From: Opitutaceae bacterium
GTDB taxonomy: Bacteria; Verrucomicrobiota; Verrucomicrobiia; Opitutales; Opitutaceae
Direction: 5' to 3'
DNA length: 64,000 nucleotides
Assembly (NCBI GenBank): GCA_015075305.1
Contig: JABTUS010000001.1
Coordinates: forward strand, 124,001 to 188,000
Shown here: positions 32,201 to 48,451 of the stretch, one piece after another
Layout: each line of letters begins with the position of its first letter
Numbering within the stretch: the stretch's first letter is position 1
Notes under the pieces: generated by a model
Told to the model about the DNA's origin: nothing
Database searches by the model: none
Seen by the model: the letters and a program-made list of their open reading frames with translations, nothing else
Translations under genes and position numbers: made by a program

Positions 32201-34310
32201 CCCCGGCGACTCCGCAGCCGCAACGCTCGTTGACGTCTATGCGAAGTCCCGTGCTCCCGAGGCCTTCGAGCAAATCCTGAAGCGTCCGGAATTTGCGATG
32301 GCTCTGCTCGCAGCAATGAAGTCGGGATCGGTTGATGCCAGCCTTCTTGGGCCCGGCAGCGTCGCGCGCCTGCGCCGGCATCCGAACTCCGAGGTCTCAA
32401 GGGATGCCACCCGTCTGCTCGCCACGCTGAGCCCTGAAATCAAGGAAAAGAACACCCTCATCGCCCGCCTCATTCCCGAGGTCGAGAAACCCGGTGATGC
32501 CGCCAAAGGTCGAGCGATTTTCACCGCCGCCTGCGCCGTCTGTCATGCTCACGGCGACATCGCCGGACGTTCCGTCGGCCCATCGCTCACCGGCATGGGC
32601 TCGCACGGTCCTGCCGAACTGCTCACCCACATCATAGACCCCAACCGAGAGGTTGATCCCAGTTACGCCCAGTGGGACATCACCACAAAGACGGGTGAGA
32701 CCTACGTCGGCGTGATCGTTTCGGAAAACTCCCGCTCCATCACGCTTCGCAATCAGGCAAGCGACCACGAAATCAACCGGGGCGACATCAGCCATCGCGA
32801 GAACACCCACCGGTCCCTGATGCCCGAGGGATTCGAGGGCATCGGCGCCGAGGGGCTGCGCGATCTCCTCGCCTACATCTGCGGCACCGACCAGGCCTTT
32901 CGCGTGCTCGACTTGCGCGGCGTGTACACCGCCGACACCCGGCGGGGCATGTTCAAGAGCGAGGATCAGGTGGACGACGGCGTCACGCTGTCGCGCTTCG
33001 GCAATGTATCCATCGAAGGCATACCGTTTGCCGTGATCGACCCCGGAAAATCACCCAGCGGACGCAACCTCATAGCGCTCAAGGGTGGCACGAGACGCGA
33101 CGACTTCTCGCAGCAGTATCCCCGTCGCGTGGAAATCCCCGTGGATGTCACGGCAGCGAGTCTCCACTTTCTCGGAGGAGTGGGTGGCAACGCATGGCCC
33201 GCCGGAGGCAGCGCCGCCCTCGGCATGCCGGTGCTGAAGGTCACGGTGAAATTCGCGGACGGCGGCGCGGAGGAGCACGTCCTCAGGAACGGTATCCATT
33301 TTTCGGATGCAGTTTCCAACGTCGACGTTCCCGGCAGCACGGACGCCGGCCCATTCACCCGCAGGGGACGGCTCCGCACCTTCGGCATCGGCCTCTCTAA
33401 ACCGACTCGGCTCAAGGCGATCGTGCTGGAGAGTTATGACAACAACGTCGTCCCCTGCACAGTCGCCATCACCGCCGGCGCAGAACCCATCAAGCCGGCG
33501 CCTCAACAGTCCGCCGCATCGCTCCGACCTGAGCTCGCGGCAGTGGAGGTATTGATTCCCTCCACCGCGACGTGGACCGCTGGTCCCAAGGAAGGATGGA
33601 AAGGGGACGCGCCACTGCCGCCACTGACGCCCGTGAATTGGGAGCCAGGCAAGACACGCGTCCTGCTGATTGGCGGAGGAAGCTCGCATGACTTCACACG
33701 TTTCTTTGACAAGGCCGACGGCGCCACGCTGCGCTCCGCCGGCTTCACCACCCATTACACGGAGGATCGCGATCAGGCTGCGGAAACGCTCGCCAACGCC
33801 GACGTCGCGGTGATCAGCGTCAACCGGCGTTTCTTCGATTCTCCGGCCTACCGGCAGGCGCTCTGGCAGTTTGCCGATGCGGGAAAGGGGATCGTCATGC
33901 TTCACCCCGGAACCTGGTACGGGTATCCGCAATGGCCCGAATTGAATGCACGAATAGTCGGCGGCGGAGCGCGCGGGCACGACAAGATCGCGGCCTTTGC
34001 CGTCAACTCAATCCTGCCTGCGCATCCCGTGCTGGATGCCGTGCCCGCCTCATTTTCAGTGGTGGACGAACTCTACTATTTCAACGCGGAGGCGGACAAG
34101 ATCCCCGCCGACACCGCGGCCATCACCGTCCTGGCGGAAACTTCGCCATCGGTGAAGTATGGACGCCCGCATCCCGCGGTCTGGATCACCACACACGATC
34201 ATGCGCGTATTGTCGGCATCACCCTCGGGCACGATCAGCGCACCCACGACCACCCGGCCTTCAAACAGCTTCTCATCAACGCCGTGCGCTGGGCCTCGCA
34301 GAAGCCCTGA
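29289..34310 (+). CDS. Giant multidomain PVC protein: ThuA, PVC dehydrogenase, HEAT-like repeats, cytochrome c, second ThuA
   Basis: This 1673-residue exported protein has a signal peptide of about 24 residues. A ThuA-like domain lies at about 26-265 (IFIRSGPKTHGPGAHDYPRF). The PVC-type membrane-bound dehydrogenase propeller covers about 300-690 (LHPDFNLSLVASEPLIDKVM, GRLWVCETPEYP). Helical HEAT-like repeats run at about 710-1060. A cytochrome c domain with CAVCH (Cys1082, Cys1085, His1086) continues to about 1195. A beta-sandwich follows (about 1205-1440), then a second ThuA-like domain (about 1455-1670, RVLLIGGGSSHDFTRFF). Such proteins are thought to oxidise sugars or polyols in the periplasm and pass electrons to heme. 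Two ThuA units in one chain are unusual. The downstream gene starts 16 bp later. Confidence 0.88.
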   Translation: MARFVSLLLASVLACSAVIGSAAESPLRIFIRSGPKTHGPGAHDYPRFLREWVPLLNDRGARATGGDAFPTASQLAETDVLILHAQEAGTIAAAEDRANLDRFLERGGGLVVIHAGVVSNDPDWFKSIVGGSWRNGTTRWLEGPMNLYFVDRHGPITRDVSNWEMDDEIYYDLELSPDAHVLATAYTPKPGASDNPRVQQRVSELTAGGKRVSIYDIQPQMWTYERKLEGGAKPYRAFVSIPGHYYENFNRPNYRAILLRGIAWAGQRANADELCHADELGDALRYVEGGPTRPEKAASKIELHPDFNLSLVASEPLIDKVMNLEWDEKGRLWVCETPEYPNGRRTVNTAVWKDSGSLHPGKTQRDPEDRISILTDTDGDGVMDKRRVFADKLELVTSFVLHRDGVIASAAPDIWFLEDTDYDGVADRRTRLYTGLGTFDAHAVLNNLRWGLDGWIYATHGYSRGEVKTGDGSRSFGFIGSGVVRFKPDGTAFEQVSSRSGNCWGLAATWDGQIFWTQPTSGTVLFHTVLPERILAMGRVPGTQSAKGMIIGQKTYPAMAWPEQAYVQIDLVGQFTAAAGCAIYEGGAWPDKWNYSYFTTEPTLNIVHHEFLTPDGVSYSSAKEKGREETEFIRSTDLWFRPIDTRIGPDGALYVIDFYNQAVIHNDTRGPTHGPTNAAVRPDRDHYFSRIWRIQHKQARTLSRPVLDRNDVAGLMSVIRNHPNSQVKKTAWRLAQETPAGSSAIAALNKPVGSQAEAVYSSALSASTSSARREILADFVRASDAWTQSAIIAAATQHAAPFIIDCFAVANRTGLDVLIAAVAPSLRADEIASVLKAAAGAGSSDAQPLRLALLSALGQSPKLSPESNPALLASLRHFLEDATTAAAALPLAARWDTRGALAKSRDRVSAALLKALTNAGQSDKQRSQAAASLLSTPQTQPGALSRIRTLLESEAVSAPLRTGLIDALGSVPGDSAAATLVDVYAKSRAPEAFEQILKRPEFAMALLAAMKSGSVDASLLGPGSVARLRRHPNSEVSRDATRLLATLSPEIKEKNTLIARLIPEVEKPGDAAKGRAIFTAACAVCHAHGDIAGRSVGPSLTGMGSHGPAELLTHIIDPNREVDPSYAQWDITTKTGETYVGVIVSENSRSITLRNQASDHEINRGDISHRENTHRSLMPEGFEGIGAEGLRDLLAYICGTDQAFRVLDLRGVYTADTRRGMFKSEDQVDDGVTLSRFGNVSIEGIPFAVIDPGKSPSGRNLIALKGGTRRDDFSQQYPRRVEIPVDVTAASLHFLGGVGGNAWPAGGSAALGMPVLKVTVKFADGGAEEHVLRNGIHFSDAVSNVDVPGSTDAGPFTRRGRLRTFGIGLSKPTRLKAIVLESYDNNVVPCTVAITAGAEPIKPAPQQSAASLRPELAAVEVLIPSTATWTAGPKEGWKGDAPLPPLTPVNWEPGKTRVLLIGGGSSHDFTRFFDKADGATLRSAGFTTHYTEDRDQAAETLANADVAVISVNRRFFDSPAYRQALWQFADAGKGIVMLHPGTWYGYPQWPELNARIVGGGARGHDKIAAFAVNSILPAHPVLDAVPASFSVVDELYYFNAEADKIPADTAAITVLAETSPSVKYGRPHPAVWITTHDHARIVGITLGHDQRTHDHPAFKQLLINAVRWASQKP

Positions 34311-34326
34311 CCCGTCCTCCTCCCCC

Positions 34327-35583
34327 ATGCCGACCATCGCCGTCCTAGGCACGTTCGACACAAAGGGCGCGGAACTCCGATTCCTTGCCGGCGAGATTCA
34401 GCGCCACGGCCACACGGTCCTGACGATCGACGTGGCGACACTTCAACATGACGGCCCGCCAACGGACTTCGGATGCGAAGCAGTCGCACCGAGATCAGGG
34501 GTCGCGGACTGGCGGACGGTGCTGGCGCGCAAGGATCGCGGCGTCTCCATCGCGCTCATGGCCGAAGGAGCCGCGCGCCTGCTCGCTGAACTCGCCGCCT
34601 CGGGAAGCATTCAGGGAGCCATCTCCATGGGGGGAGGCGGAGGCACCGCGATCGGAAGCGCCGCGATGCGGCCCCTGCCGTTTGGGTTTCCCAGAATCAT
34701 GGTGACCACGCTGGCGAGTGGAAACACCGCTCCCTATGTTGGCACCTCGGATCTCGTGCTCTTTCCGGCGATTGTCGACGTCGCCGGATTGAATCGCATC
34801 TCGCGCCTCACCTTTGAAAACGCCGCGGCAGCCATCTGCGGCATGGTCAGTGCGGCGGAGATCCGCCGCGGGGTGCCGCCCGAAGGGAAACCCCTTGTGG
34901 TCGCCAGCATGTTCGGCAACACCACCGCGTGCATCAACGAGGCGAAGAGCCTGATCGAGGCGGCCGGCTACGAGGTACTTGTCTTTCATGCAACAGGTAC
35001 CGGCGGCAGAAACATGGAGACGCTGATTGCATCGGGACTCGTGTCCGGTGTGCTGGATCTCACCACAACGGAATGGGCGGACGAGCTTGTCGGCGGCATC
35101 CTGTCCGCAGGCCCGACCCGCCTGGATGCCGCGGCGAAACTCGGCGTGCCGACCATCCTCGCCCCCGGCTGCCTCGACATGGTGAACTTCGGCGAACGCC
35201 AGACGGTTCCCCCGCGCTTTGCAGGCCGCCTGTTCTACCAGCACAACCCTCAGGTTACCCTGATGCGCACATCCGTCACCGAATCTGCGGAACTCGGCCG
35301 AATCCTGGCGACCAAGGCGAATGCTCACGGCGGACCGGTCACCCTCTTTTTTCCCAAACGAGGACTCAGCGCCATCGGCGAAGCCGGACAATCCTTCCAC
35401 GCCCCAGAAGCCGACGCCGCCCTTCTCGCAGCCATCCGCGAGCACCTCAACCCCGGCATTCCCCTCATCGAAATCGACGCCCCCATCAATGCCCCCACCT
35501 TCGCCCAAGCCTGCGCCCAATCGCTCCTCGATTCGATGACCAGAACCCAGCCCCACAAGTCTGCCCCCTCAACTTCAAAGTAG
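34327..35583 (+). CDS. Tm-1-like ATP-binding domain protein (UPF0261)
   Basis: The start at ATG 34327 (MPTIAVLGTFDTKGAELRFL) gives 418 residues. Typical UPF0261 features include AISMGGGGGTAIGSAAMRPL, LASGNTAPYVGTSDL, VVASMFGNTTACINEAKSLI and LAPGCLDMVNFGE. In tomato the homologous domain of Tm-1 binds ATP and blocks tobamovirus replication; in bacteria the natural role is unknown. In this operon it is the last gene, and the TIM-barrel half of plant Tm-1 is encoded at 27906. The Ser/Pro-rich tail (last 20 residues) is not part of the fold. The cytoplasmic location is inferred from the lack of a signal peptide. Confidence 0.9.
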   Translation: MPTIAVLGTFDTKGAELRFLAGEIQRHGHTVLTIDVATLQHDGPPTDFGCEAVAPRSGVADWRTVLARKDRGVSIALMAEGAARLLAELAASGSIQGAISMGGGGGTAIGSAAMRPLPFGFPRIMVTTLASGNTAPYVGTSDLVLFPAIVDVAGLNRISRLTFENAAAAICGMVSAAEIRRGVPPEGKPLVVASMFGNTTACINEAKSLIEAAGYEVLVFHATGTGGRNMETLIASGLVSGVLDLTTTEWADELVGGILSAGPTRLDAAAKLGVPTILAPGCLDMVNFGERQTVPPRFAGRLFYQHNPQVTLMRTSVTESAELGRILATKANAHGGPVTLFFPKRGLSAIGEAGQSFHAPEADAALLAAIREHLNPGIPLIEIDAPINAPTFAQACAQSLLDSMTRTQPHKSAPSTSK

Positions 35584-35740
35584 CTCATCCAACCAACCAC
35601 CATCGCCGGAAAAAAAGCCCCAGCCCGGCGCAACTCCCCCCACCGTGGCACCGCCATGGGTTCACGAGTCAACCCACATCCCGAGCCCTGAAAGGAAGTG
35701 CCCCCGCATCTCCCGATCAACCCGCCCGGACTCCCACGTG

Positions 35741-35760
35741 GCACGGGCGTCCCGCCCGCG
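35741..35760. repeat. REP-like palindrome
   Basis: CGGGCG and CGCCCG flank a TCC loop, giving a 6-bp GC stem of the REP type. A degenerate relative (GCACGGGCGTCCC) occurs near 36468. Short palindromes of this kind are typical partners of REP-associated tyrosine transposases, and a remnant of one lies at 36239. The rest of 35584-35860 shows no gene. Confidence 0.5.
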
Positions 35761-35859
35761 ATGTTTTCGACACCATCAAAACTCCCCTACCGCCAAATCA
35801 CACCGATCACGCGTCCATCGGACTCCGCACGCACGCTTGATCTGCTGCTGAAACGCGCT

Positions 35860-36054
35860 GTCGGAGAGGCAGTGCCGCCGACCAATTCTGGCGACGTAGG
35901 AGTAGATCGTGCGCTCAACACGCCCACGAGCCGCGCGTTCACCGACAAATTTGATTCGCAGCAAAGTCACTACCCCGCCAGATTGACCCTGCTGATGCCC
36001 CCGACCTTAGCTCAACTCCCCAGCCCCTCCCGCCGCTCCGCGGCTTCGTTCAAC
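35860..36054 (+). repeat. Dispersed structured repeat, copy 1 (diverged)
   Basis: This copy shares ATTTGATTCGCAGC and the end block CCGCTCCGCGGCTTCGTTCA with copies 2-5 downstream, in the same order and orientation. The left part has diverged, so its left edge is uncertain. The end block contains the hairpin GCCGC-TCC-GCGGC in the other copies; here the left arm begins CGCCGC. It lies about 690 bp left of the large ATPase gene, making it the left border of the accessory island. Confidence 0.7.
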
Positions 36055-36238
36055 GATCGAAGGAAGAGGAATCTCGAACAACATGGTCATCCCATCACGC
36101 CGCAATTGATGCCTCTCGGCGCTGCAGTCTATGCTTTGTTGTTTTGCTTGCTGACTTCATTCTACGCTGGCCGAATTGCTGATAAAGGAGGCAGTCCTTA
36201 CTGATTGTATGAACGAGCAAGAGACGGGAAGAAGGGGG

Positions 36239-36380
36239 ATGGCAAGAAAGACGAGGATGGCGTTAGGGGGGGCGTGTTATCATGTGGTTAGCTGGGTCAA
36301 CTCCCGTGGATGGATATTCAAGGAGGACGAAGCGAAGCAGTCGTTTGATGAGTGTCTGGCGGAGGCGGCGACCAGGTTCC
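36239..36380 (+). pseudogene. Remnant of REP-associated tyrosine transposase (RAYT, IS200-like)
   Basis: From ATG 36239 the frame reads MARKTRMALGGACYHVVSWV, then NSRGWIFKEDEAKQSFDECL and loses family character near 36380. This is the N-terminal start of a RAYT-type Y1 transposase; the HUH motif and catalytic Tyr are missing. Just upstream, at 36190-36207, GGCAGTCCTTACTGATTG matches the left end of the dispersed repeat. The gene is therefore broken and may be the source, or a victim, of the repeat family. Confidence 0.6.
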
Positions 36381-36743
36381 TCTTCTCCCATCGCACGTTG
36401 TGGTTTCCAGTCCCTTTGGTATTGACCTATGGACTGACCCTTTTGCCTTGCCCCCAGGACTCCGACGTTGCACGGGCGTCCCTCCCCGAGTTGAGCTCGG
36501 AGATCGACCGGAGCCAAAGCCCTCTTCACTGCCTATCGGTCCTGCTGCCTTGCGATGCGCAAAATGCACTTCCGACTCTCTTGCGCCGTCCACTGCCTGT
36601 AACCAGTTCCGCGCAGTGGGCCCGCATCCTGGAAGCTTGGTTTGTCGCGCGGACGTCCGCAGCCGCCTGATTACTCATGTTCCGCAATCAGCAAGGACTA
36701 GGATGCGGCGCGGTTCTATTTCGTTCGCAGCGCCCGGTTTAAA
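36381..36743. other. Gene-free region before the large ATPase gene
   Basis: An open frame crosses part of this stretch but continues the transposase remnant without any recognisable domain. It includes a degenerate copy of the short REP-like sequence near 36468. The promoter of the two-gene operon that starts at 36744 must lie here, though no clear -35/-10 pair or ribosome binding site was identified. Confidence 0.4.
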
Positions 36744-39700
36744 ATGCCCTCGATATTCTTTCGCGAAGCCTATGAAGCGGTCTGTAGCGACCCGCGCATC
36801 CTCCGGAAGCTCCGTGATGAACATTTTCAGGAGTTCAAACTTCTAGAAGAAGCCCTGAGTTGGCTGAAACCGGAAGCAAGATGCGATGCAATCCACGCCA
36901 ACTGGCTCCTGGTGCTCGATACTCCGTTAAGCAACATGCTGCTCCAGGCAAGGAACCGGCTCATAAAACAGGGCGGTCTGGCGGCTAATTATCTCGCTGA
37001 GTTTGCGCAAAATGCCGACGACGCATTGGAGCGAACTCAAGGAGGAGAAGTGCGCATCTGGACCCGCTCGGATTGGCTTCTTGTCGCCAACAATGGACGC
37101 CGGTTTACGGGACTCGATCTGTTCGGTCTGTGTAGCTTCTTCTCCAATGGCGCGAAGCAGATCGAACCAGACAGCATCGGGAAATTCGGAGTGGGATTCA
37201 AGTCCTGCTACCGAATCGGTAGTGAGGTTTGGGTCAAAACTTGGGGCGACGGAGAAAGCTTCGGTTTCCGACTGCCTCTGTGTCGAAATGGGCTGCCCGA
37301 GTCCTACTATGATGTCGCCCGTTTTGAAAAACTGATCAGACTCCTCAAGCTGGCGGCACCACGAATGTCGCAGGATGAGCTAGGCTATTGCACGCCAGAG
37401 TTCTCACTGACGCCGCCCCCGGAGATTGCCGACCAGTTCCGTGAAGTAGAGCAGGCGTTTGAATCCAGTGGTTCGATTTTTGCCATCCGGCTGCATGCGG
37501 AGGGTCGGGCTTCATTGGCCGAGCGGCTGAAAGATCAAGCAAGCCAAGTGTATGAATTGTGTCCGCTGTTCCTCCGGAAACTGAGGATCACCAGGCTGGA
37601 GCTAACGTCCCTCAGGCTGATCCAGCATGAGGCCAAAACCACAGACTCGATTGTCGACTTTGTGACGGCTGAGCCGGTGACACTCGAGGCCCAGACTGCC
37701 GATGGTAGGAAATCCAACGCGAGGTTCTGGCGGTTGACTGAGGCCGCCACCAGCAATCCCTGGAAAATCGCGCTGCACGCCGACAGCAACTTTCTCCTGA
37801 GCGTCTCCACGCAGGCAGGGGAATTTCTCTCGCTCCGCGAAGGAGCGGCCTATGCGTTCTTTCCCCTCAGCACTGTAACGGCCAACTGGCCCTTTCGGCT
37901 GCACCTCCATCTCGATTGCCCGACGGACTTGAGTCGTAACAATTGGAGCCCTGAGAACCCGGAGGAAATCAGATCTAGAATCCGGGCAGCAGCGGCCGGT
38001 CTCTGTCAATGGCTGGAAGCAAATCCATCCAAGTGGCATGACGAGTGGGATCTTAGCGCGATCATCAAGGAGATCCCGCCGCGTCCGCTCCCGGGCGCCT
38101 TTGACCAGCAACCGGCTTGGTGGTTTTTCGATGAGCTGCAGTCGCAGGTGCAGAAGAGAGACCTGCTCCGATCATTAACGGGCCACTTTACTTCAGGAGG
38201 AAAAGCACGGGGTGTTCCGCTCTATCAAGACGCGGTTTACCTGGAAGGATGGAGGGAGCTGGGTCAACAGGCCCCGGAGCACTTTGCCTCTCGTCTTTGG
38301 TGCAACGAGAATTGTGTCAAGGTGTGGAACGTCCCTCAAGTGCAGTCGGATGACATCATCGAGCTCATCAAGGAGCTGATGTCTATCCAGGAAGGTGATA
38401 TCCTGACGCGCGATCAAATGGCAATGTCACTCCTTAAGTGCGTTCTCGGGATCAATTTGGGGAGGCGCTCTTCCCTGGAGGAATGGCTCCGGCATATCCG
38501 AATCCCTTCCGCAGACTGCACCGTCATGGAGCTATTCGAACGCCCCGGCGGGGCCACTCTTTCGTCCGAGTGGCATCGTCTTTTCCAAACTCTGCACGCC
38601 GCGCTGAAGGATGCGGAGTCTGGCGAACGCGCCGTAGCAAAAAGTCAGCTAATCGATCGGCTCAAGCGGTTCTCACGGGCAGCGTTTAATCCTCCCTGGT
38701 CGGACGTCCCAACTCTTCTCCGCGACTACCTTTGGCCGGATAAGGGTGACGAATTCTGGGGCGGATCACGGGAAGCCTGTCCGGCCAACTTGGTTCGTCC
38801 TGTCGTGGCAATTTTGGAGGTCCGGAATGCAGCGCAGGACTTCCGACCAATTGCCGAAGTGTGGCTGGCCTCTTCTACGGCCCCAACGGCTTTTGAAGGC
38901 GCAGTTGCTAACGCTCACAGCAAGATGCGGCTAGAATACAAGACCGCCCTGACCAATTGGGGTTTGTTCGAAGAGTATGACCGCGTCCTGCAAGAGAGGC
39001 TTGCCCAAGATCTGCCAGCTGCTCTCGGCGCTTCGCTGAAGCAAGCTGTTGCCCACAACAGAGTGGGGGAGTGGATCGAGAAGCGCCTCGGTGAAAAGCA
39101 GCAAGCGGACAAAGATGGCCTTCAATGGGGGGCCTTGTTCGGTCAGGCGCTTAGCGCGTCTATTGTTGCATCGCTTGTCCCGGCATTGCGCGACCTCGGT
39201 CCGCGCCAAATTCTCAGCCGGAGCATTCCGGATGCCGTTCGTTCGGTGGTATTGATCCTGCGCGACTACGTGGAGGCCCCGACATGGTTGAACGATCGAG
39301 CATTCGAGAGCCTCGTCAAAGCGGACAATGGCGGCATCTTCTCGGGGCTCACCTTTCTGCCAGAGCGTTCGTTCACGACCAAGTTTCCGGATATCACTCG
39401 CCAGTTGCTGGTCACTTTTCACTCTTGGAAGAGTCGTCCGCTGTCGTCAGCTCAGTGCGAGGCCCTTGAGAAAATATTTGCGTCGCCTAGCAGGACAGAT
39501 CGGAAAAATTTTCCTGTCGGTATTGGGCCGAGAACCGCACGACCTCTTAGTGATTTTATTGTCATCGAGGAATCAGAGTCCGACCCAAACAGCTATTGGC
39601 TCAAGGAGGCTCGCACCGTTGAAGCGACCACGTTGCCAGGTGAATTGGCGCGGTTTCCAGCGCTGGTTGAGGTATGCGCTCGGATCAAGGACCTGAAGCT

Positions 39701-42395
39701 GGTCATGGATGGGCTGCCGGAATCAGGACTCTCCTTTCTGGAGCATGAGGTTGCGGATGAAATTCTCGCCCTGCCACCCGTCCAGAAGCTCCTGCGCGAC
39801 GGCGGTGTTACATCGATCCACCAACACGTGCCGCTGAAACTTGAGTGGCGCGACGGCGAACGCCGAGTGGCCTCGGTAGATCGGGCCGATTTCGTTGTTC
39901 GCGGGCAGCAGCTTTTCGTCAGTCGAATCAAGATTAGCACGGAGGATCAGCAGTTTGAGGACATCCTCAGCAATTACTTGAGCCACTCCGCCCAAGATCC
40001 GGAGGTCACCCAAGCCCGCACAGAGGCCAGGGAGAGCCGCACCCCCATTCGTGCGGTGTATGAGCGGTTCCGCCCCCGTATCTTCAAGCAACTCTGCCGC
40101 GCCTTTATCGAGGACGTTGGCTATTCTCCCGAGCATATCTGGCGGGAGCTACTCCAAAATGCCGAGAACGCCTATGCCAGTCTCCCCGATCCGCGACCAA
40201 TAGATCAACCTTTCAGCGTCACAGTCTTGGAGACCACCGACAACCATTGCCTGATGACGGTGACGAACCATGGTCGCCGATTCAACCAAGCGGACCGCGA
40301 CGGCAATCCTCGCGATGATATTGCCCGGATCATCAGTGTCGGCGGCCAGCGAGTGCAGACCCGCATGGAGATCGGGCGCTATAACCTGGGCTTCAAGTCC
40401 GTGTTCTCCATTACCGACACGGTGGAGATAACGAGCGGCACCTTGAACTTCTCAGTGAAGGACCTCCTACTGCGGTATCCAAGCAAACCAATTCAACGCC
40501 CCGAGAAAGCAGCCGAACCAACCTCATTTTCGTGGAAGTGTTCCAAGCGCGACGCAGCCGTCGCCGCCGGCGTGCCCGTCAACGCCACCCAAGGGGCGTC
40601 CCGCTTCCTCAGACCTCATCAGACAGTCTTCACCAGGTTCGTGAACAAGCTGGAGCTGGATTATCGCGGCCTTGCCCGATCAGTGCACATCACTCGAGAC
40701 CCCGTCCCGGGAGGCACCATGGTTCGTTTCCACGATCTGAATCCCGCTCCCGTCCAATTTCTTGTCCTCAGAGATGAAATCGCGATCCGCAACACCTCGG
40801 AGGGGCGCCTAGAATTTGCGGTGGCCGCGCAGGTCGACGACCACGGCCTACCGCTGCCCATTCCGGATGAGCAGTGCTTCTTTCACGTGGTGTTCCCGAC
40901 CGAACACAAATCGTTCGTGCCATTCCTGATCGACGCCGATTTTGAGATGCATGGCCAGAGCCGAGGCCAGATCCAGGATTGCACGCGTAATCTGACGCTG
41001 ATCAACGCGGCTGCCCGGCTTCTATTTGAGCACGCACAGGAAATGTTCGCCCGGGATGTCAGCAAGAGCGCGTGGATTGCCTGGGCACGCATCCTCGCTC
41101 CCGACGAATTGCTGGCGGGAGCGAAGATCTTCTTTTCGGAAGGATTGTCCGCCACGCAGGCCTTGAGGGATGAAATTTGCGAGTTCCTGCTCGCCCACGT
41201 CCCTCACGGAGGGCGATCAGTTTGCCACGAATCCTTGACCATGCCCTCGGCTTTGCTGCGACGCTTCGCGTCTGAGCCGGGCAAGGGATACGACTTCAGC
41301 GACAGGAACTGGATCGAACCGGAGGTTGAGGTGGCGATGCGCAAACTCGGAGTTAACTCGAACTACACTTTGGGCGAATGGGTGAGCCACCTTGATGCCG
41401 ATGATGACACGTTGCGCCAGCTCAGGGACGAGCTGGATTCCTTCCAGCTGAAGAGCATTGAAATTGAAGAGATGCGTCGGGCGCGTGACGTCGTTGCGCG
41501 CAGGGTCCAACAGCCGGTAGCCCCGCCTCCCAGCTGGGGAATCGACTCGGTCGCGACGTGGTGGGAGGAAAACTGCGACGAGACGCCGTTCACCCTCGAT
41601 GGCGATCTCTTCACGTGGGTTGCTCCGGCGACCGCACAGACGCCTGGGGACCGACGTGCAGCATTGGTGGGCTGGCTGAGCGATCCCACTTCCGCGCCTG
41701 GACGAGAGGTTTGGTATCGGATGTTAAGTTACGCCTGTTTCGTTTCGGTCGGCAATCGCCACACCGAGGTCGTCAAATTCGAAACCCTGCTGGCCTCGAA
41801 GGGATTCTTTGCGCGCACGGCCACGGAAGGTTTTTCTTCCGTCGCTGAGGAATTGTTTCTCCAGCTGACCAAAACCCCGTTCACCGGTGGAAACGCGACC
41901 GGGGAGCTGGCTGATTTTTGGCGCCGGCTTTTCTACGACGTGAAGAAAGTGCATCATCTCATCTACGAGAACGATTTCGGGGAAGTTTTGCTCGGCCTTT
42001 GTCGGCGTGAAGACCGGGCGGACGCCATTATCCCTTTTCTGCGAAGCGGGCAGCTGCCCGGACAATCACACTGGCGCGGTGTGCTTGGGCAGAGCGCACT
42101 TTCGCCCCTATTTTTTGTGATCCGCGAACTGCGGCGCCTTGGCCTGATCGAGCATCCCGCCGCGGATGATACGGCCTTCTTTGTTTGTCGACCTGTGCGC
42201 CGCACTGCGCGGCGGCTGGGTTGGATATCGGAAGAAGAAGAACTACGCGGCGACCAGGACAGCCTGCTGGTCGTCGCCGCCAAGATACACGAGCGCTTCA
42301 AATCCAGCCCTCTTGCCAGACAGCATTTACTCCCATATTTCGACATACCCCTGCTCGCTCTCGACCAATCGGGCGAGCTGGAAAAATTCGCATGA
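36744..42395 (+). CDS. Very large protein with two sacsin/Hsp90-like (GHKL) ATPase modules; candidate defence protein
   Basis: The 1883-residue protein carries two similar ATP-binding modules. Module one: AEFAQNADDALE (N90, D92, D93), VANNGRRFTGLDLFGL and SIGKFGVGFKSCYRI, at about residues 70-190. Module two: RELLQNAENAYASL (N1139), VTNHGRRFNQADRDG and EIGRYNLGFKSVFSITD, at about 1120-1260. Both fit the sacsin-type branch of the Hsp90/histidine-kinase-like ATPases. The rest (about 200-1100 and 1270-1883) is helical and shows no named domain. Its stop overlaps the start of a SNF2 helicase gene as ATGA, so the two are co-translated. The gene sits inside a repeat-bordered island with toxin-antitoxin modules. 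I infer a role in anti-phage defence or nucleoprotein remodelling; no experimentally known system with exactly this pair is recalled. Confidence 0.82.
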   Translation: MPSIFFREAYEAVCSDPRILRKLRDEHFQEFKLLEEALSWLKPEARCDAIHANWLLVLDTPLSNMLLQARNRLIKQGGLAANYLAEFAQNADDALERTQGGEVRIWTRSDWLLVANNGRRFTGLDLFGLCSFFSNGAKQIEPDSIGKFGVGFKSCYRIGSEVWVKTWGDGESFGFRLPLCRNGLPESYYDVARFEKLIRLLKLAAPRMSQDELGYCTPEFSLTPPPEIADQFREVEQAFESSGSIFAIRLHAEGRASLAERLKDQASQVYELCPLFLRKLRITRLELTSLRLIQHEAKTTDSIVDFVTAEPVTLEAQTADGRKSNARFWRLTEAATSNPWKIALHADSNFLLSVSTQAGEFLSLREGAAYAFFPLSTVTANWPFRLHLHLDCPTDLSRNNWSPENPEEIRSRIRAAAAGLCQWLEANPSKWHDEWDLSAIIKEIPPRPLPGAFDQQPAWWFFDELQSQVQKRDLLRSLTGHFTSGGKARGVPLYQDAVYLEGWRELGQQAPEHFASRLWCNENCVKVWNVPQVQSDDIIELIKELMSIQEGDILTRDQMAMSLLKCVLGINLGRRSSLEEWLRHIRIPSADCTVMELFERPGGATLSSEWHRLFQTLHAALKDAESGERAVAKSQLIDRLKRFSRAAFNPPWSDVPTLLRDYLWPDKGDEFWGGSREACPANLVRPVVAILEVRNAAQDFRPIAEVWLASSTAPTAFEGAVANAHSKMRLEYKTALTNWGLFEEYDRVLQERLAQDLPAALGASLKQAVAHNRVGEWIEKRLGEKQQADKDGLQWGALFGQALSASIVASLVPALRDLGPRQILSRSIPDAVRSVVLILRDYVEAPTWLNDRAFESLVKADNGGIFSGLTFLPERSFTTKFPDITRQLLVTFHSWKSRPLSSAQCEALEKIFASPSRTDRKNFPVGIGPRTARPLSDFIVIEESESDPNSYWLKEARTVEATTLPGELARFPALVEVCARIKDLKLVMDGLPESGLSFLEHEVADEILALPPVQKLLRDGGVTSIHQHVPLKLEWRDGERRVASVDRADFVVRGQQLFVSRIKISTEDQQFEDILSNYLSHSAQDPEVTQARTEARESRTPIRAVYERFRPRIFKQLCRAFIEDVGYSPEHIWRELLQNAENAYASLPDPRPIDQPFSVTVLETTDNHCLMTVTNHGRRFNQADRDGNPRDDIARIISVGGQRVQTRMEIGRYNLGFKSVFSITDTVEITSGTLNFSVKDLLLRYPSKPIQRPEKAAEPTSFSWKCSKRDAAVAAGVPVNATQGASRFLRPHQTVFTRFVNKLELDYRGLARSVHITRDPVPGGTMVRFHDLNPAPVQFLVLRDEIAIRNTSEGRLEFAVAAQVDDHGLPLPIPDEQCFFHVVFPTEHKSFVPFLIDADFEMHGQSRGQIQDCTRNLTLINAAARLLFEHAQEMFARDVSKSAWIAWARILAPDELLAGAKIFFSEGLSATQALRDEICEFLLAHVPHGGRSVCHESLTMPSALLRRFASEPGKGYDFSDRNWIEPEVEVAMRKLGVNSNYTLGEWVSHLDADDDTLRQLRDELDSFQLKSIEIEEMRRARDVVARRVQQPVAPPPSWGIDSVATWWEENCDETPFTLDGDLFTWVAPATAQTPGDRRAALVGWLSDPTSAPGREVWYRMLSYACFVSVGNRHTEVVKFETLLASKGFFARTATEGFSSVAEELFLQLTKTPFTGGNATGELADFWRRLFYDVKKVHHLIYENDFGEVLLGLCRREDRADAIIPFLRSGQLPGQSHWRGVLGQSALSPLFFVIRELRRLGLIEHPAADDTAFFVCRPVRRTARRLGWISEEEELRGDQDSLLVVAAKIHERFKSSPLARQHLLPYFDIPLLALDQSGELEKFA

Positions 42396-45121
42396 ATGCC
42401 GGGACCCGAGTGCTTCATAAGCAACACCCCGAATACGGCTTCGGGGTGGTCCGCTACGATGAGGACAATGTTTTGGGCGAGCGCCGTCTTCAGGTCAGCT
42501 TTGATCATGTAGACGCGTTGCTTGAGCTGGCTCCCGAGGCGGTGGTCGAGGTCGCCCACCCGGAACAGGCGGCCCAAGCCGGCGAATGGGGCAAAGTCGA
42601 GACGTTGAGGACGCAGTTGTTGGCTGCCCTCGTCATCGCCGAAAACAACGCGACCAGTGCCTTCATCAAGACGACCACCCGTCCGCTGCCGCACCAGGTG
42701 TCCGTTCTCGACAAAATCACGTCAGGTGAACGGTTCGGCCATCTGTGCGCAGACGATGTCGGTCTCGGAAAAACGATCGAGGCGGGATTGCTGATCACAC
42801 ACGCGCTGGCGTCACAGAAATCGAGTAAGGTCCTGATCGTCTGTCCGGCCGGCGTGGCCCTGCAATGGCAGGACGAGATGGAGGAGCATTTCTCCCTCTA
42901 CTTTTCGGTGCTGGGCATCGACTTCAAGGGCACGCTCCCGGCCCAATGGCGAAACCACTTTCTGGTCATCGCGCCCATCGACCGCCTCAAGCAACCGCAC
43001 TATGAGACCGTGTTGAGGGAAGCCGGCCCGTTTGACCTGATCGTTTGCGACGAAGCTCACCGGTTGAACGCATCGCGCAACCGCCTAACGGAGAGTCTTG
43101 AAAAAACGAAGAGCTATCGGCTGTTCGAGCGACTCATCGCAGAGAAGACGGTGAATTTCGTCACCCAAGCGGGCGCCCCTCGCTCGCCGCGGATGCTCTT
43201 TCTCTCCGCCACGCCTCACCAAGGGGACGACGTCCGGTTTCTTTATCTCCTGCACTTGCTGCGGCCAGATCTTTTTCCCATCGAGAACGAGGATCTGGCG
43301 CCACTCAGTTCGGAGCAACTACGGGAGGTGGTCACCCGGACACCCAAAGCGCTGGCGCGAGACTGGGAAGGGGTGCCCATCTTCAAGGGTCATTCCGCCC
43401 ATACGATCGATGTCCCGTGGACCGTTCAGGAAACAGCTATCTCAAGGCTTCTCAGCGCATACATTCGGAAGTCCCTCTCCGCGTCGTCAGCATCCGGCAA
43501 GCCCAACGCGCTGGTAGTGGAGCTGGTCATGCACACGTTCCACAAAATTGCCGCGAGCAGCTGGCGAGCGCTTCAATCCACCCTCCGACACCGACTAGAG
43601 TTGCTGGCGAAGCGTCGAAGCGGTTTTGCCGCCCACTTGGATGCCGACGGCGAGGATACGGGGGATACCGTCAATTTTTCCGACGAGGAGATGGAAGGAG
43701 CATTTTTCGAGGAAGAGATTATTTCCCTTCAGGGAATTCTATCGTCGCTCGATCGCCTGGACACGGACAGCAAGTGGCAGCACTGTCGCGATCTTCTGCT
43801 CGGGTTGGATCAAGAACAGGCGAATTGTAAGGTCCTTTTCTTTACTCAATTCCGAGCCACCCAGGATTACCTGTATAAACAGCTCCTCGCCCTTTTTCCG
43901 GGGTCGGGGGTGGAAATCGTAAACGGTGACGTGCCCTTGCAGGATCGACGGCTGGCCCGGCGCCGCTTCGAGGCGGCATCGCGCTTCATGATATCCACGG
44001 AGGCCGGTGGCGAAGGCGTCAACCTCCAGCGAGCCTGCCATATCATGGTAAACTACGACTTGCCTTGGAATCCCATGCGCGTGCAGCAGCGGATTGGGCG
44101 CCTGGACCGGTACGGCCAGAAAAATCGCGTTTCGGTCTTCAACCTCCGGGTGCCGGACTCATGGGATGCGCGCATCTCCACCCGCATTGAGGAGCGCCTC
44201 GCCGTTATCCAACGTACGATGGGCCACGTCGTGTCCGCGGATGTAGAAAACTATCGGGACATGATTCTTGGGCACGTGGCCGACAAGATCGACCCACGCT
44301 CAGCCTTCAAGGATCACCTTCACGGCGGGGATATTCCGGTCGAGCAGGTGGATCGCTTCCTGAGGGAAGCCATCGACTCCATGGAACGCTGGAAAAAGCG
44401 TTTCGGAGAAGGCCTCACGCCCGACCTCGATTCCACGAAATTCGCGACCACCCTCACTCCGGAGGATTTCAAGCTCGGCTACTCGGCTGCGCTCCAAACC
44501 CTAGGTCTTCCCCTTCAGGAGTCGCGCAACAGCCGGAATCAGTTCATCTCGGACGTCTTTCACTTCACCCTGCCCGTTGAGTTTCGGGACCCCCAGATTC
44601 GGCCGCACCGCGAATTCTACGTCGTGTTCAGGCGTGACGTCTACCAGCGCGTGCGCGATGAGGATCTCGGCACCGTGAAAGGCCAGCCGATACGGGCCAA
44701 CCTTGCAGGGTTCGGCGAAAGTTTCACCGACTGGCTATTCCAACAAGCAACCGCCGCGAGGCCGAACGCCTCGGCTTACCAGGTGCGGGCTCCGGCAAAC
44801 TGGAAACACGGTTCAGGCTGGCTGGCGGTCTATACCCTACGCTTTCTCGGTGCCTCACGATGCCTCTTGGCACCCGACTCCGTCGTGCCGGTGTGGCTTC
44901 CGGACTCTGGCCCCCCTCACGTGCTGCCGACACCTGACGTCTTCGCGCTTTGCCAGGATGCCAGTGAATCCGTCCGTCGCAGCAACGAGGTCCCTCCCTT
45001 GTCCGGAGCCCTCACACTCGCCCGCGAGTGCCTCAAGGCACGCCTCGCAGCGCGGCCGAACCATTCGTCTTCCTCGATATCGCTGACCCTCTGGTCACTC
45101 ACCGCAGTGCATACCCTCTGA
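42392..45121 (+). CDS. SNF2/RapA-like superfamily 2 helicase, partner of the GHKL protein
   Basis: The start at ATG 42392 overlaps the previous stop (ATGA) and gives 909 residues. An N-terminal region of about 90 residues begins RVLHKQHPEYGFGVVRYDED, a small beta domain like those preceding DrmD- or RapA-type helicases. Motifs: I DVGLGKTIEAG (GLGKT from residue 124), II DEAH (220-223), III LFLSATPHQGDD, V STEAGGEGVNLQ and VI RIGRLDRYGQ. The C-terminal 300 residues lack a known domain. SNF2 enzymes move along double-stranded DNA or strip proteins from nucleic acid. DISARM DrmD is the closest known defence analogue, but other DISARM genes are absent. The last residues run into the left edge of repeat copy 2. 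Confidence 0.88.
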   Translation: MNAGTRVLHKQHPEYGFGVVRYDEDNVLGERRLQVSFDHVDALLELAPEAVVEVAHPEQAAQAGEWGKVETLRTQLLAALVIAENNATSAFIKTTTRPLPHQVSVLDKITSGERFGHLCADDVGLGKTIEAGLLITHALASQKSSKVLIVCPAGVALQWQDEMEEHFSLYFSVLGIDFKGTLPAQWRNHFLVIAPIDRLKQPHYETVLREAGPFDLIVCDEAHRLNASRNRLTESLEKTKSYRLFERLIAEKTVNFVTQAGAPRSPRMLFLSATPHQGDDVRFLYLLHLLRPDLFPIENEDLAPLSSEQLREVVTRTPKALARDWEGVPIFKGHSAHTIDVPWTVQETAISRLLSAYIRKSLSASSASGKPNALVVELVMHTFHKIAASSWRALQSTLRHRLELLAKRRSGFAAHLDADGEDTGDTVNFSDEEMEGAFFEEEIISLQGILSSLDRLDTDSKWQHCRDLLLGLDQEQANCKVLFFTQFRATQDYLYKQLLALFPGSGVEIVNGDVPLQDRRLARRRFEAASRFMISTEAGGEGVNLQRACHIMVNYDLPWNPMRVQQRIGRLDRYGQKNRVSVFNLRVPDSWDARISTRIEERLAVIQRTMGHVVSADVENYRDMILGHVADKIDPRSAFKDHLHGGDIPVEQVDRFLREAIDSMERWKKRFGEGLTPDLDSTKFATTLTPEDFKLGYSAALQTLGLPLQESRNSRNQFISDVFHFTLPVEFRDPQIRPHREFYVVFRRDVYQRVRDEDLGTVKGQPIRANLAGFGESFTDWLFQQATAARPNASAYQVRAPANWKHGSGWLAVYTLRFLGASRCLLAPDSVVPVWLPDSGPPHVLPTPDVFALCQDASESVRRSNEVPPLSGALTLARECLKARLAARPNHSSSSISLTLWSLTAVHTL

Positions 45122-45130
45122 CCAGGGTAG

Positions 45131-45391
45131 TCCAAGAGGGTCAGTCCTTACTACTAAACCTAATTGATGCCGCACTCGTTTGCCTGGCGACGCTGGATTG
45201 GATTGCGCACTCCGCACGTCCACGAACGATCAGTTCAGGGATGGATTTGATTCCAGCGGAGTCGTCATCCCGCCAGCTTCACCCCATCGACATCCCGACC
45301 TCAGCCAACTCCCCTGCCGCCGCTCCGCGGCTTCGTTCAACACAGACAGATTGACCGTGTGACCCTCTGTCCATTTTTTCGAGGCAAGCCC
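45131..45391 (+). repeat. Dispersed structured repeat, copy 2 (long form)
   Basis: The copy starts with GGGTCAGTCCTTACT and the internal block GATTTGATTCCAGCGGAGTC, and ends with the hairpin block GCCGCTCCGCGGCTTCGTTC at about 45341. A further tail to 45391 (ACCGTGTGACCCTCTGTCC, then a T-run) is shared only with copy 5. It follows the helicase gene directly. The region 45392-45507 up to the PIN gene shows no additional gene. Confidence 0.8.
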
Positions 45392-45507
45392 AAAAACCAC
45401 CTACCCCGGAATTGGCGCCAGTATCCCCAACGATCCCAAACTCAGATCACGTTCGCGTGATTCCGTTTTCTGACCGCATGAGATTCGTTCGGGAACGAAC
45501 CATAGAA

Positions 45508-46026
45508 CTATTTTTGGAAAAAATCCCGCGCGATTCTTCGCGGAGATACGATGAGGGGACAAGATACGTCATGCGAATCCAACAACAACTTGAGCGGTCC
45601 TGCCGGTACATCGAGCAAGTGATTATCCGACGAAAGAAGCAGCGTACAATTGAGGAGCGAGGCTTCGGCGAGAATTAACGAATCGTTGATTTCCTCGGCC
45701 GGCAGATAGCCTCGTTCCCGAATTTTCTCGGCAATCTGCTCCACGATGCCGTGACCGACCGGCACTAGATCCACCGGCTGAAACTTCCACTTTGTGCGGA
45801 GATTTACCACGGCGATTTCTGCCAGCCGTTGTTCGTCCGCATCACCTGCATGGTCGTGCGCCACGGCCAACTCATCAATGACTGTCGGAGGAACAATAAT
45901 GATCGCTCCGGGCAAACGTCGTCGAATGATCTCAAGCGCCTCCCAAGACGCCGGCGCCTCCTCAGCTAGATCGAGGAGGTAGTTCGTAGCAACGGCGATG
46001 AGCGTGGACTTTGTCCCCACCGCCAT
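45508..46026 (-). CDS. PIN-domain toxin with altered first catalytic Asp
   Basis: This 172-residue PIN protein starts at ATG 46024-46026. PIN toxins are metal-dependent ribonucleases with four acidic residues. Here the first position reads IAVATNYLLDLAEEAP, where most relatives have Asp-Thr-Asn; the Asp is Ala (codon GCT). Later acids are in place: VIDELAVAH, NDSLILAEASL and SSDNHLL. Loss of the first Asp would be expected to weaken or abolish cleavage, but the Asp five residues on could shift role. It overlaps the antitoxin end by 65 bp. The unit sits between repeat copies 2 and 3 on the strand opposite to the other modules. Confidence 0.8.
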   Translation of the reverse strand: MAVGTKSTLIAVATNYLLDLAEEAPASWEALEIIRRRLPGAIIIVPPTVIDELAVAHDHAGDADEQRLAEIAVVNLRTKWKFQPVDLVPVGHGIVEQIAEKIRERGYLPAEEINDSLILAEASLLNCTLLLSSDNHLLDVPAGPLKLLLDSHDVSCPLIVSPRRIARDFFQK

Positions 46027-46171
46027 TGCCGTAGATCAATTGCATGCCGCGTAGACGGGCTGCTTCTCGTTGCGCATCGGTGAGCTTGTTCGCACGGGAA
46101 CGCAGCCGAGCACCGATTTCCGTTCCTTTGGTGGGCGGCTCAGGCTTGGACGTTTTAGGAATAGTGGCCAT
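45962..46171 (-). CDS. Antitoxin-like partner of the PIN protein
   Basis: The start at ATG 46169-46171 (MATIPKTSKPEPPTKGTEIG) gives 69 residues. It contains LTDAQREAARLRGMQLIYG, a form I know from antitoxins next to PIN toxins. A basic, Pro-rich N terminus precedes it. A 23-codon upstream extension is possible. It is upstream of and overlaps the PIN gene, the usual antitoxin-first order. DNA-binding or RNase-neutralising action is inferred from the order only. Confidence 0.65.
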   Translation of the reverse strand: MATIPKTSKPEPPTKGTEIGARLRSRANKLTDAQREAARLRGMQLIYGNGGGDKVHAHRRCYELPPRSS

Positions 46172-46234
46172 GTGACCAGATGTAAATCGAAGGTTGAGAT
46201 CGGTCAACCGTTTCGCGTGCTTCGGTTCGGGGCA

Positions 46235-46445
46235 AGCCAAACGGGTCAGTCCTTACTCAACAACCGGATTGATGCCGCACTTGCTAGCCTGGCGGCGCAG
46301 GATTGGATTGTGCACTCCGCACACCCACGAGCAGTCCGCTAACGGATGGATTTGATTCGCAGCGGAGTCATCACCCCTCCAGCTTAACCTCATCGATGCC
46401 CCTGACGTCAGCCCCCCTTGCCGCCGCTCTGCGGCTTCGTTCAAC
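46235..46445 (+). repeat. Dispersed structured repeat, copy 3
   Basis: It starts near ACGGGTCAGTCCTTACTCAA, has the internal block GGATTTGATTCGCAGCGGAG and ends with the CCGCCGCTCTGCGGCTTCG block followed by TTCAAC. One base of the terminal hairpin differs from the other copies. It lies between the start of the PIN antitoxin gene and the DUF4160 gene. The remaining 110 bp to the DUF4160 start hold no clear gene. Confidence 0.8.
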
Positions 46446-46555
46446 CAGCCACCCGGGCCGGCTCCGCTGACGCGTCATGGCTCACCTCGAACCTTCGGCA
46501 GACGGAAAAGAGGGCGTGCTTGAGCATGACTGTCGCCTATGCGACACTTCGGGAG

Positions 46556-47042
<487 letters not shown>

Positions 47043-47073
47043 TCAGGGTTTGAAGAAGGAAGTGTCCAGGCTA

Positions 47074-47293
47074 TCCAATCGGGCCAGTCCATACTCCGAG
47101 ATGTGATTGCAGGCGCAGTCGCTGGCATAGTGAGGCAGGATTAGATCGTGCGCCTGGCAGTGCCACGAACGATCAGTTCGCCGATGAATTTGATTCGCAG
47201 CGGAGTCATAACTCCGCCAGCTTGACCCCACCGAAGCTCCCGACGTCAGCTCAGCTCCCCTGCTCCTGCCGCCGCTCCGCGGCTTCGTTCAAC
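47074..47293 (+). repeat. Dispersed structured repeat, copy 4 with clear internal hairpins
   Basis: The left end reads GGGCCAGTCCATACT. An internal palindrome GCGGAGT-CATA-ACTCCGC spans 47200-47217, and a second hairpin GCCGC-TCC-GCGGC spans 47271-47283, followed by TTCGTTCAAC. A third short pairing GAAC-GATCA-GTTC is at about 47168-47180. This copy best shows that the element can fold as a series of hairpins. It lies between the DUF2442 gene and the second PIN module. Confidence 0.82.
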
Positions 47294-47360
47294 CAGCCGC
47301 CCGTGCCGCATTCTTATTTTCGGTTGCGTCGGCGGGTTTGACCGCCACGTTGCTGCCAAC

Positions 47361-47537
47361 ATGACTTCGACTCTCGCGGGATCGAAGCTGCGCCCCACCA
47401 AAGTTCGTGGACCGCAGCGACATGAAAAGTTTTGGGTAAGAAAGGCAAATCCGGAATTGGACCGTGCCGGCAAATGGCTTTTGGAGAATCTGGCTACGGT
47501 CCGCGCACAAGCCACATCCCGTGCCCATTCTCCTTGA
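47361..47537 (+). CDS. Small antitoxin-like protein upstream of PIN toxin
   Basis: From ATG 47361 the frame codes for 58 residues (MTSTLAGSKLRPTKVRGPQR and onward to RAHSP). It ends at TGA 47535-47537, overlapping the start of the PIN toxin by 17 bp. Its size, basic N terminus and overlap fit an antitoxin-first toxin-antitoxin pair. No family is recognised. The call rests on position and coupling. Confidence 0.6.
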   Translation: MTSTLAGSKLRPTKVRGPQRHEKFWVRKANPELDRAGKWLLENLATVRAQATSRAHSP

Positions 47538-47910
47538 TACTGGTGCCGTTGAGTTGCTGCGGCGGCGCGATCGAAAGGCTGAGTCTCTCGTTCTGCGACA
47601 TTATCCACCGGTCATCTGCACCCCTGTTGTGGGTGAGTTTCTTTTCGGACAAGCCCATGCCAAAGTTTCGGCTACGGCGTTTCAGGAGGCTCGTGAATTT
47701 CTCGATTCATTTGAGGTTCTCCTCCCCGATGCGAATATTGCAGCGATTTACGGTCGGCTCAGGGCGCAGCACTTGGCGTCCGGAGTACAGTTGCCGGATC
47801 CCGACTATTGGATCGCTGCGCACGCCTTGGAGAGTCGACTGCCACTTGTTTCGACCGATCGAGATTTCAGGCATATTGCGGAGCTTGTCGTCCACTGTGT
47901 CGCAAAGTGA
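47521..47910 (+). CDS. PIN-domain toxin (VapC-like)
   Basis: The start at GTG 47521 (VPILLDTGAVELLRRRD) gives 129 residues. All four acidic positions are present: LLDTGAVE, TPVVGEFLFG, LPDPDYWIAAHAL and VSTDRDF. VapC toxins are ribonucleases that cut structured RNA such as tRNA. A longer frame begins at 47464, but the GTG fits the PIN N terminus and overlaps the upstream antitoxin. Repeat copy 5 starts 33 bp downstream. Confidence 0.85.
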   Translation: MPILLDTGAVELLRRRDRKAESLVLRHYPPVICTPVVGEFLFGQAHAKVSATAFQEAREFLDSFEVLLPDANIAAIYGRLRAQHLASGVQLPDPDYWIAAHALESRLPLVSTDRDFRHIAELVVHCVAK

Positions 47911-47942
47911 CGAGCCTACCGTTGACCAAGGCCTTGGGCGCA

Positions 47943-48209: not shown

Positions 48210-48451
48210 CAGACTGACAGGATACTGGGAATCGCTTGTTTGTCACATCTCTGCGACTCCACTATTGCCAGCCTGTCTCAGGTGTCGACGGCAGCTCAAC
48301 CCCCTGCATTTCGGTCGCTCGCCGTGCCGGTTCGTGATTCATCGCCACAACGCGAATACTTTACGACCCGCGTGCGTTCGCTCGTTGACACCCCTAGGGA
48401 CCGCCTCTTGCCTCACAGTGGCCCCGCGGCCGCCGCTCCACGCATCGCCAC
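48210..48451. promoter_or_regulatory. Leader region of the mre operon
   Basis: No gene is visible. TTGACA at about 48386 could be a -35 element, but the sequence 17 bp later (TTGCCT) is a poor -10. Another AT-rich candidate, TACTTT near 48356, is equally weak. The promoter of mreB must be within or beyond this stretch; because the island abuts it, the natural upstream control may have been altered by insertion. Confidence 0.3.

Follow-up and report, generated by a model that had tools for sequence, protein, structure and literature searches.

DISARM, which has drmA, drmB and drmC as its core, and BREX, which is recognised by PglZ, BrxC and PglX, are operons that include SNF2 helicases, DrmD and BrxHII respectively. 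In the available part of the source describing them, BrxHII and related helicases combine a Tudor domain, an SNF2 core, an inactive nuclease fold and an alpha+beta domain (PMC12839542). Operons in which a GHKL ATPase accompanies an SF2 helicase were predicted in 2008 to be MORC/paraMORC restriction systems, some of them, according to the accessible text, with SWI2/SNF2 helicases and nucleases (Iyer, PMC2292703). Demonstrated anti-phage activity is reported, in the portion of the paper at hand, for the Shedu protein VcSduA, whose N-terminal domain is of the GHKL type (PMC12137116).

We analysed a stretch of 64,000 nucleotides from an Opitutaceae bacterium (hereafter the window; contig JABTUS010000001.1 of assembly GCA_015075305.1), in which a sacsin-type GHKL ATPase gene and an SNF2 helicase gene overlap. 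A preliminary description, made from the window alone, had proposed them as a candidate new defence system. The features of the locus are as follows:

36744..42395, + strand: giant tandem sacsin-type GHKL ATPase gene, 1883 aa, ATG start (ORF list, Pfam, NCBIfam, family HMM)
36999..37205, + strand: GHKL1 nucleotide-site motifs EFAQNADDA, VANNGR and IGKFGVGFKS (motif patterns)
40005..40952, + strand: GHKL2 and the region following it, aa 1088-1403 (family HMM segment 2, model, fold search)
41367..42380, + strand: C-terminal domain in common with the family, aa 1542-1879, modelled as largely helical (family HMM segment 3, model)
42392..42395, + strand: ATGA stop-start overlap of the giant and helicase genes
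42392..45121, + strand: RapA/DrmD-like SNF2 helicase gene, 909 aa (Pfam, PADLOC, NCBIfam, structure comparisons)
42416..42553, + strand: N-terminal beta-rich region, putatively Tudor-like by analogy with BrxHII (model)
42722..44119, + strand: SNF2 ATPase core, motifs I to VI (Pfam, own motif patterns)
44309..45118, + strand: helicase C-terminal region (family alignment, motif inspection)

The junction of the two genes reads GCATGAATG, in which the stop codon of the giant gene and the start codon of the helicase gene share ATGA, as the preliminary description stated. In the mechanical ORF list the helicase frame runs upstream to a TTG and measures 978 aa; the start used here, the ATG at 42392 (909 aa), gives a 4-nt overlap, present also in 22 of 79 same-strand related loci. 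The 1883-residue protein with GHKL/Hsp90-like ATP-binding motifs was confirmed as the ORF at 36744-42395 with Pfam and NCBIfam sacsin matches, and the 909-residue SNF2 helicase was indeed intact, with motifs I, Ia, II, III, IV, V and VI all found by our own patterns.

The giant matches NCBIfam P_loop_sacsin over two stretches (94.6 bits, cut-off 50) and Pfam SACS likewise over two (53 bits, cut-off 32.8). Its designation as a double sacsin-like ATPase therefore holds as regards the two GHKL domains (Pfam, NCBIfam) and needs qualifying as regards the second ATP site, which is partly degraded: the GHKL2 motifs read ELLQNAENA, VTNHGR and IGRYNLGFKS, with EN in place of the family's DD in the N-box and GRYNLGFKS, not GKFGLGFKS, in the G2 box. 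The residues missing here are retained by 44 relatives, and across the family giants both ATP sites keep conserved motifs at the sequence level. A moderate model of the protein after its first 1052 residues (pLDDT 69.1, pTM 0.54) was used for fold search, in which GHKL2 resembled Hsp90, sacsin SR1 and GyrB. The 50 Foldseek matches shown for this model were Hsp90, gyrase/topoisomerase IV, sacsin and SMCHD1 ATPase structures, and none of them indicated a fold for the C-terminal domain, in which LGxGxxFVxRELxR, RVRxL and FDIPL are conserved. Viewed by eye, the modelled part shows no (D/E)xK-type motif in its best-conserved polar columns; a nuclease could sit within aa 1-1052, outside that part. 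The window giant is ~600 aa shorter than the family giants.

RapA is the closest solved structure to the window helicase, both by sequence and by the fold of its model (pLDDT 76.1, pTM 0.73). Among PADLOC models the helicase is matched best by BrxHI and DrmD ones, and against the NCBIfam DrmD equivalog it scores 299.7 bits, under the cut-off of 610; the helicase of a Trichormus family member is covered at full length by the PADLOC model PDLC02634 'DrmD' (2173.7 bits). We took the domain layout of the window helicase from the BrxHII-type plan, which likely applies by analogy, and the N-terminal beta-rich region would then be Tudor-like. In the C-terminal region, inspection by eye of polar columns at least 90% conserved among 44 family rows revealed no (D/E)xK-type motif.

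The locus had been placed in an accessory island with toxin-antitoxin modules, and lower GC, two PIN genes, a DUF4160/DUF2442 pair and a sporadic distribution bear this out. The pair has a GC content of 0.584 and the DNA on its right one of 0.572, as against 0.618 and 0.617 in the outer flanks. A Pfam scan of ten genes between 26808 and 49465 identified a UPF0261 gene and a large DUF7133/ThuA gene on the left and, on the right, a PIN gene, the DUF4160/DUF2442 pair (presumably a toxin-antitoxin pair), the second PIN gene and then mreB. The neighbours of the pair are thus toxin-antitoxin-like, none of the ten genes scanned being a named phage-defence gene and none of them drmA/B/C, PglZ, BrxC or a methylase gene. 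When 34200-49500 was compared by blastn with mreB regions from eight relatives, which included between none and about 19 kb of sequence left of mreB, nothing to the left of 48355 matched, and the UPF0261 protein likewise had no tblastn match. The giant gene is present in one of ten same-genus genomes. The window pair is an accessory locus.

A ~220-nt repeat (12 genome-wide matches, some short) occurs at 35893-36054, 45126-45354, 46231-46455, 47069-47303 and 47940-48160, flanking the pair and the toxin-antitoxin-like genes in a cassette-array-like manner. Attribution of these repeats to an integron was unsupported: four folds of three stretches gave z values of -3.07, -0.76, -0.59 and -1.42, the single Rfam match on the flanking repeats fell under that family's gathering score, and no integron integrase reached its cut-off, sub-cut-off matches being found in 14 of 14 control genomes as well. 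By eye, end remnants of an integron-integrase-like tyrosine recombinase lie beside repeats at about 35810-35845 (- strand) in the window and at about 2200-2520 in locus L227; the latter matches TIGR02249 below cut-off (7.6e-7) and the former does not score. Such remnants beside repeat copies could point to a decayed integron. The start of the ORF at 36176-36670, which has no Pfam match, presumably resembles a RAYT transposase, judged by eye, before diverging. Elsewhere in the same genome, on another contig and unlinked to the pair, we observed a DISARM-like cluster (class II by gene sizes, by eye) at 8131-16043 of L228 (G000:C7:122000-141000), with members of 1310 aa (MZB match in the cluster) and 653 aa, a cytosine methylase-like member and a Vsr-like one; MZB (PF09369) matches in this genome are confined to contigs C6 and C7.

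As a single-sequence query, the window giant found no close relatives in plasmids, phages or viral contigs, and weak matches only in 3 of 386 other genomes of its phylum. Relatives were reached by tblastn, first using the helicase as the query and later the giant protein of a Deinococcus. Among plasmids, the helicase search led to two Deinococcus plasmids, on which a double-sacsin protein of 2456 or 2466 aa overlaps a same-family helicase, and the search with the Deinococcus giant led to seven records (Deinococcus 2, Trichormus 2, Sphingomonas 1, Haematobacter 1, Synechocystis 1). A helicase lies directly downstream in the Sphingomonas record and in the Trichormus record examined, and not in the Haematobacter and Synechocystis records. 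The A2 profile, comprising the second GHKL and C-terminal region, was searched against 84,980 genomes and returned 552 pattern stretches and 318 relatives, the best 80 of which were kept. A related SNF2 gene lies downstream on the same strand in 74 of these 80 best relatives (within 80 bp in 72), a pairing rate that may drop among the more distant of the 318. The same profile gave two matches in viral contigs. One IMG/VR contig, L091, bears the full pair. Cultured bacteria with an intact pair include Marinobacterium lutimaris (L101), Amphritea atlantica (L096) and Rhodoblastus acidophilus (L142).

For the count of gene arrangements we used 85 loci: 80 from genomes (the best of 318), one viral and four plasmid-borne. 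The viral L092 and the plasmid relatives L088 and L089, none of which has an adjacent helicase, were left out, and many of the contigs counted end near the pair. The helicase is downstream on the same strand in 79 of the 85 loci, within 80 bp in 77 and after gaps of 817 and 819 bp in the other two. The genes overlap in 48 of the 79, by exactly 4 nt in 22, the long overlaps being partly overcalled because ORFs in this count begin at the first possible start codon. One further locus has the helicase on the opposite strand and five, all cyanobacterial, have none. Each of these five (L158, L159, L165, L166 and L169) has an overlapping gene downstream; the five genes are related and encode 221-229 aa, and the one tested matches DarG. 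Any third gene family (ORFs of at least 120 aa) recurs in 8 of the 85 loci at most, and the family unit is two genes.

Named phyla are available for 69 of the 75 genome loci with a helicase and number 15; the two Deinococcus plasmids add one more. Co-occurrence across phyla, a check proposed in the preliminary description, was found, and its refuting case of homologues that never travel together did not arise. Protein distances of the giant C-half and the helicase are strongly correlated over 58 loci (Mantel r 0.874; maximum of 1000 permutations, 0.119), with mean identities of 29% for the giant C-half vs 49% for the helicase. Within the window's phylum, 32 of 387 genomes match the family profile at E ≤0.001, and only the window's own genome scores high (514.6 bits; next, 53.4). 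The distribution is sporadic, not vertical; with a single strong match among these 387 genomes and one carrier among ten of the same genus, the vertical distribution in core regions that would have spoken against a mobile defence module was not seen.

Pairing with SNF2 genes is not a general property of sacsin-domain giants. Of eight sacsin-domain giant loci taken from the window's phylum, an SNF2 gene is adjacent in two, where it lies upstream and there is one GHKL domain, and one other has GmrSD partners. The arrangements observed in that phylum include HEPN-SNF2 then sacsin (L057, 4388-11364), SNF2 then sacsin with a 4-nt overlap (L058, 6148-12611), and sacsin-GmrSD with a second GmrSD gene (L059, 2292-8659).

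Whether this family-wide evidence extends to the window depends on its pair being a member. A family HMM, built from 45 of 55 full-length family giants with the window protein excluded, matches the window giant collinearly in three segments (GHKL1; GHKL2 and the following region; C-terminal domain) at 109.7 bits, 38.7 of them in the C-terminal segment; the E-value of 3.3e-36 refers to a one-sequence target. SACS matches in frames of 600-700 aa, which we take to be about the length of HtpG, were set aside. The window locus has both sacsin-type GHKL domains, the shared C-terminal domain and an SNF2 gene directly downstream on the same strand. Its helicase, a long branch, tells a less uniform story. 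The pair's helicases, 29 and 17 rows in the two trees, form one group (SH-aLRT 100), and the window helicase is nearer by BLAST to Nitrosococcus/Deinococcus helicases with a non-sacsin-like upstream partner (38.9% identity, vs about 29-33% to family helicases), with which it groups in the larger tree (SH-aLRT 92). This would fit a convergent origin, in which a sacsin-like giant was joined to a helicase of a different branch, and the family-wide evidence would then not transfer. Against this, the smaller tree puts the window helicase beside the pair's helicases, with support of only 51, although holding it with the other-partner group is not rejected and fits slightly better (log-likelihood 3.6 higher, p-AU 0.608). 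The window pair and the family also have their gene order, the overlap, the C-terminal domain and the two GHKL domains in common. Convergence is in our view doubtful, and, whichever branch its helicase comes from, we regard the window pair as a probable divergent but collinear member of this two-gene class.

Nitrosococcus and Deinococcus actinosclerus have helicase pairs that we set aside as members, their upstream proteins being without a sacsin match; that of D. aquaticus was set aside too, as there the upstream protein is 55% identical to the D. actinosclerus one. Another SNF2 pairing (L017, 6867-11427; L018, 4742-11409; L022, 4197-10909) combines a close helicase relative with upstream proteins bearing a C-terminal RLTRRQRAE-type region; the two upstream proteins scanned gave no sacsin match.

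The widespread, mobile two-gene unit to which we assign the pair is, in the explanation we prefer, reasonably likely to protect its hosts from phages or other invading DNA. Complete flanking ORFs of 150-1100 aa were compared with PADLOC (115 of 131 ORFs, 20 loci), alongside controls from distant places on the same contigs (114 of 134 ORFs drawn from 164; 17 of 20 control regions). At 1e-20, 106 models matched in the flanks vs 16 in the control, a contrast overstated by overlap between models, as one DrmD protein alone matches 23 of them. At 1e-80, about 9-10 of 115 flank ORFs matched vs 2 of 114 control ORFs (Fisher p 0.06 with 9, 0.03 with 10). Flank matches at this threshold, among the first 25 of 29 families, included DrmD, BrxL, PglZ, pAgo, CBASS cyclase, SspA/DndA, SspD, DRT reverse transcriptase and AbiLi, and the SspA/DndA matches may be one cysteine desulfurase. 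The control has PADLOC matches as well, four proteins matching mad3 among them. Eight of ten neighbours, picked as recurrent or adjacent and not at random, match PADLOC (DrmD, PDC-S68, a type IIG enzyme, a DruE-like helicase, a GajB-like helicase, DarG, PglZ and a type I restriction subunit). Sampled flanks across the family contain DISARM, BREX, CBASS, pAgo, DRT and restriction genes. The direction of the enrichment is clear and the strict statistic is modest (p 0.06 or 0.03); other defence genes, which the preliminary description had suggested looking for, lie in some of the sampled flanks.

The same surroundings bear on two further readings. A module for competition between, or maintenance of, plasmids or islands, rather than for phage defence, would agree with the members on Deinococcus, Trichormus and Sphingomonas plasmids and with the toxin-antitoxin-like neighbours in the window, but 80 of the loci were taken from genome assemblies, which may include plasmid contigs, and phage-defence genes lie in the flanks sampled from 20 of these 80; we judge it unlikely. 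Lower still we place an island-borne stress or proteostasis module without defensive function, in which a sacsin/Hsp90-like chaperone would accompany a RapA-like recycler of RNA polymerase. The nearest solved structures are sacsin and Hsp90 for the giant and RapA for the helicase, and sacsin acts as a chaperone in the available part of the literature (PMC3710099); however, the pair is sporadic, partly plasmid-borne and spread over 15 named phyla, its giant evolves fast, defence genes occur in the sampled flanks, and the relatives of its SNF2 protein found in PADLOC are helicases of defence systems, as expected from that library. It is improbable that the pair is a detached or variant part of DISARM (DrmD) or BREX (BrxHII) that works only with the remainder, even though BrxHI and DrmD are PADLOC's best helicase matches, PDLC02634 covers the Trichormus helicase, a cytosine methylase and a helicase-related gene lie near the Trichormus pair and a DISARM-like cluster exists on a different contig of the window genome, for the window helicase falls short of the NCBIfam DrmD cut-off, the ten genes scanned include no drmA/B/C, PglZ, BrxC or methylase, no third gene exceeds 8 of 85 loci, and the DrmD gene at L101 branches apart from the pair's helicases.

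How a two-gene defence module of this kind would act can be proposed tentatively. A non-cutting mode, blocking or remodelling rather than cutting, is favoured by the lack of a recurrent nuclease or methylase gene with the pair, and blocking over cutting in particular by the (D/E)xK-type motif not being seen by eye. The pair may possibly be a two-component immune machine, present in at least 15 named phyla, that works without a nuclease or self-marking methylase and joins an Hsp90-type clamp and sensor to a RapA-like motor. Both genes would be translated together and their products would form one complex. The giant, which changes faster than the helicase (29% vs 49% mean identity), would be an ATP-gated Hsp90/MORC-like clamp and a fast-evolving sensor of the invader, and would recruit or gate the RapA-like SNF2 motor; this motor would travel on the invader's double-stranded DNA and strip or block replication or transcription complexes there.

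HMM searches of defence databases and genomes, as the preliminary description had advised, gave 318 relatives in 84,980 genomes and no such pair named in PADLOC 2023 or NCBIfam. Searches of open-licence PMC papers showed no such pair either, and the available text of PMC3710099, PMC8195603, PMC12458937, PMC11077055 and PMC12137116 does not describe it. The claim of a new system stands for the exact pair and not for its general plan, since GHKL and SF2 helicase operons were predicted in 2008 (PMC2292703, as far as its accessible text goes) and PADLOC already files the Trichormus family helicase under DrmD; 'undescribed' here is limited to open-licence PMC papers, PADLOC 2023, NCBIfam and Pfam. 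Taken together, our analysis identifies a real, widespread and sporadic two-gene module, a new combination of known parts as far as searched, with a probable role in defence.

Among known systems, Tiamat, to which we take TmtA to belong, resembles the giant in its GHKL regions: the TmtA matches that PADLOC gives there are local (best 6.9e-24), the best stretches covering about 75-250 aa of models that are 1063-1655 aa long and none the full length, and the window locus differs in its two GHKL domains and coupled helicase. The MORC/paraMORC operons share with the pair a GHKL gene beside an SF2 helicase (SWI2/SNF2 in one group), mobility and a predicted defence role, but often carry nucleases and methylases, whereas the pair has a giant double sacsin-type protein and no recurrent nuclease or methylase gene across the 85 loci, and the window operon contains neither; the word 'sacsin' is absent from the accessible text of that paper (PMC2292703), and a Pfam scan of the window proteins up to E 1 found no MORC family. 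VcSduA is alike in its GHKL ATPase but, in the text available, is a single protein with a PD-(D/E)xK nuclease and no helicase (PMC12137116). Animal sacsin, the best PDB-sequence match of the GHKL2 profile, has no helicase and, in the part of the source at hand, carries DnaJ and HEPN domains (PMC3710099). If the pair is defensive, it would be a compact, easily tested addition to the systems sharing SNF2 helicases, and sacsin-type ATPases, familiar to many through a human ataxia protein, would acquire a defined partner and a role in bacteria. The window helicase belongs to one family with DISARM DrmD, BREX BrxHII and RapA, likely with the same domain plan, although it lies below the DrmD equivalog cut-off and the ten window genes scanned include no DISARM partner and no PglZ, BrxC or PglX; with a single partner here, as against the longer DISARM and BREX operons, the pair bears on the function of DrmD/BrxHII-type helicases.
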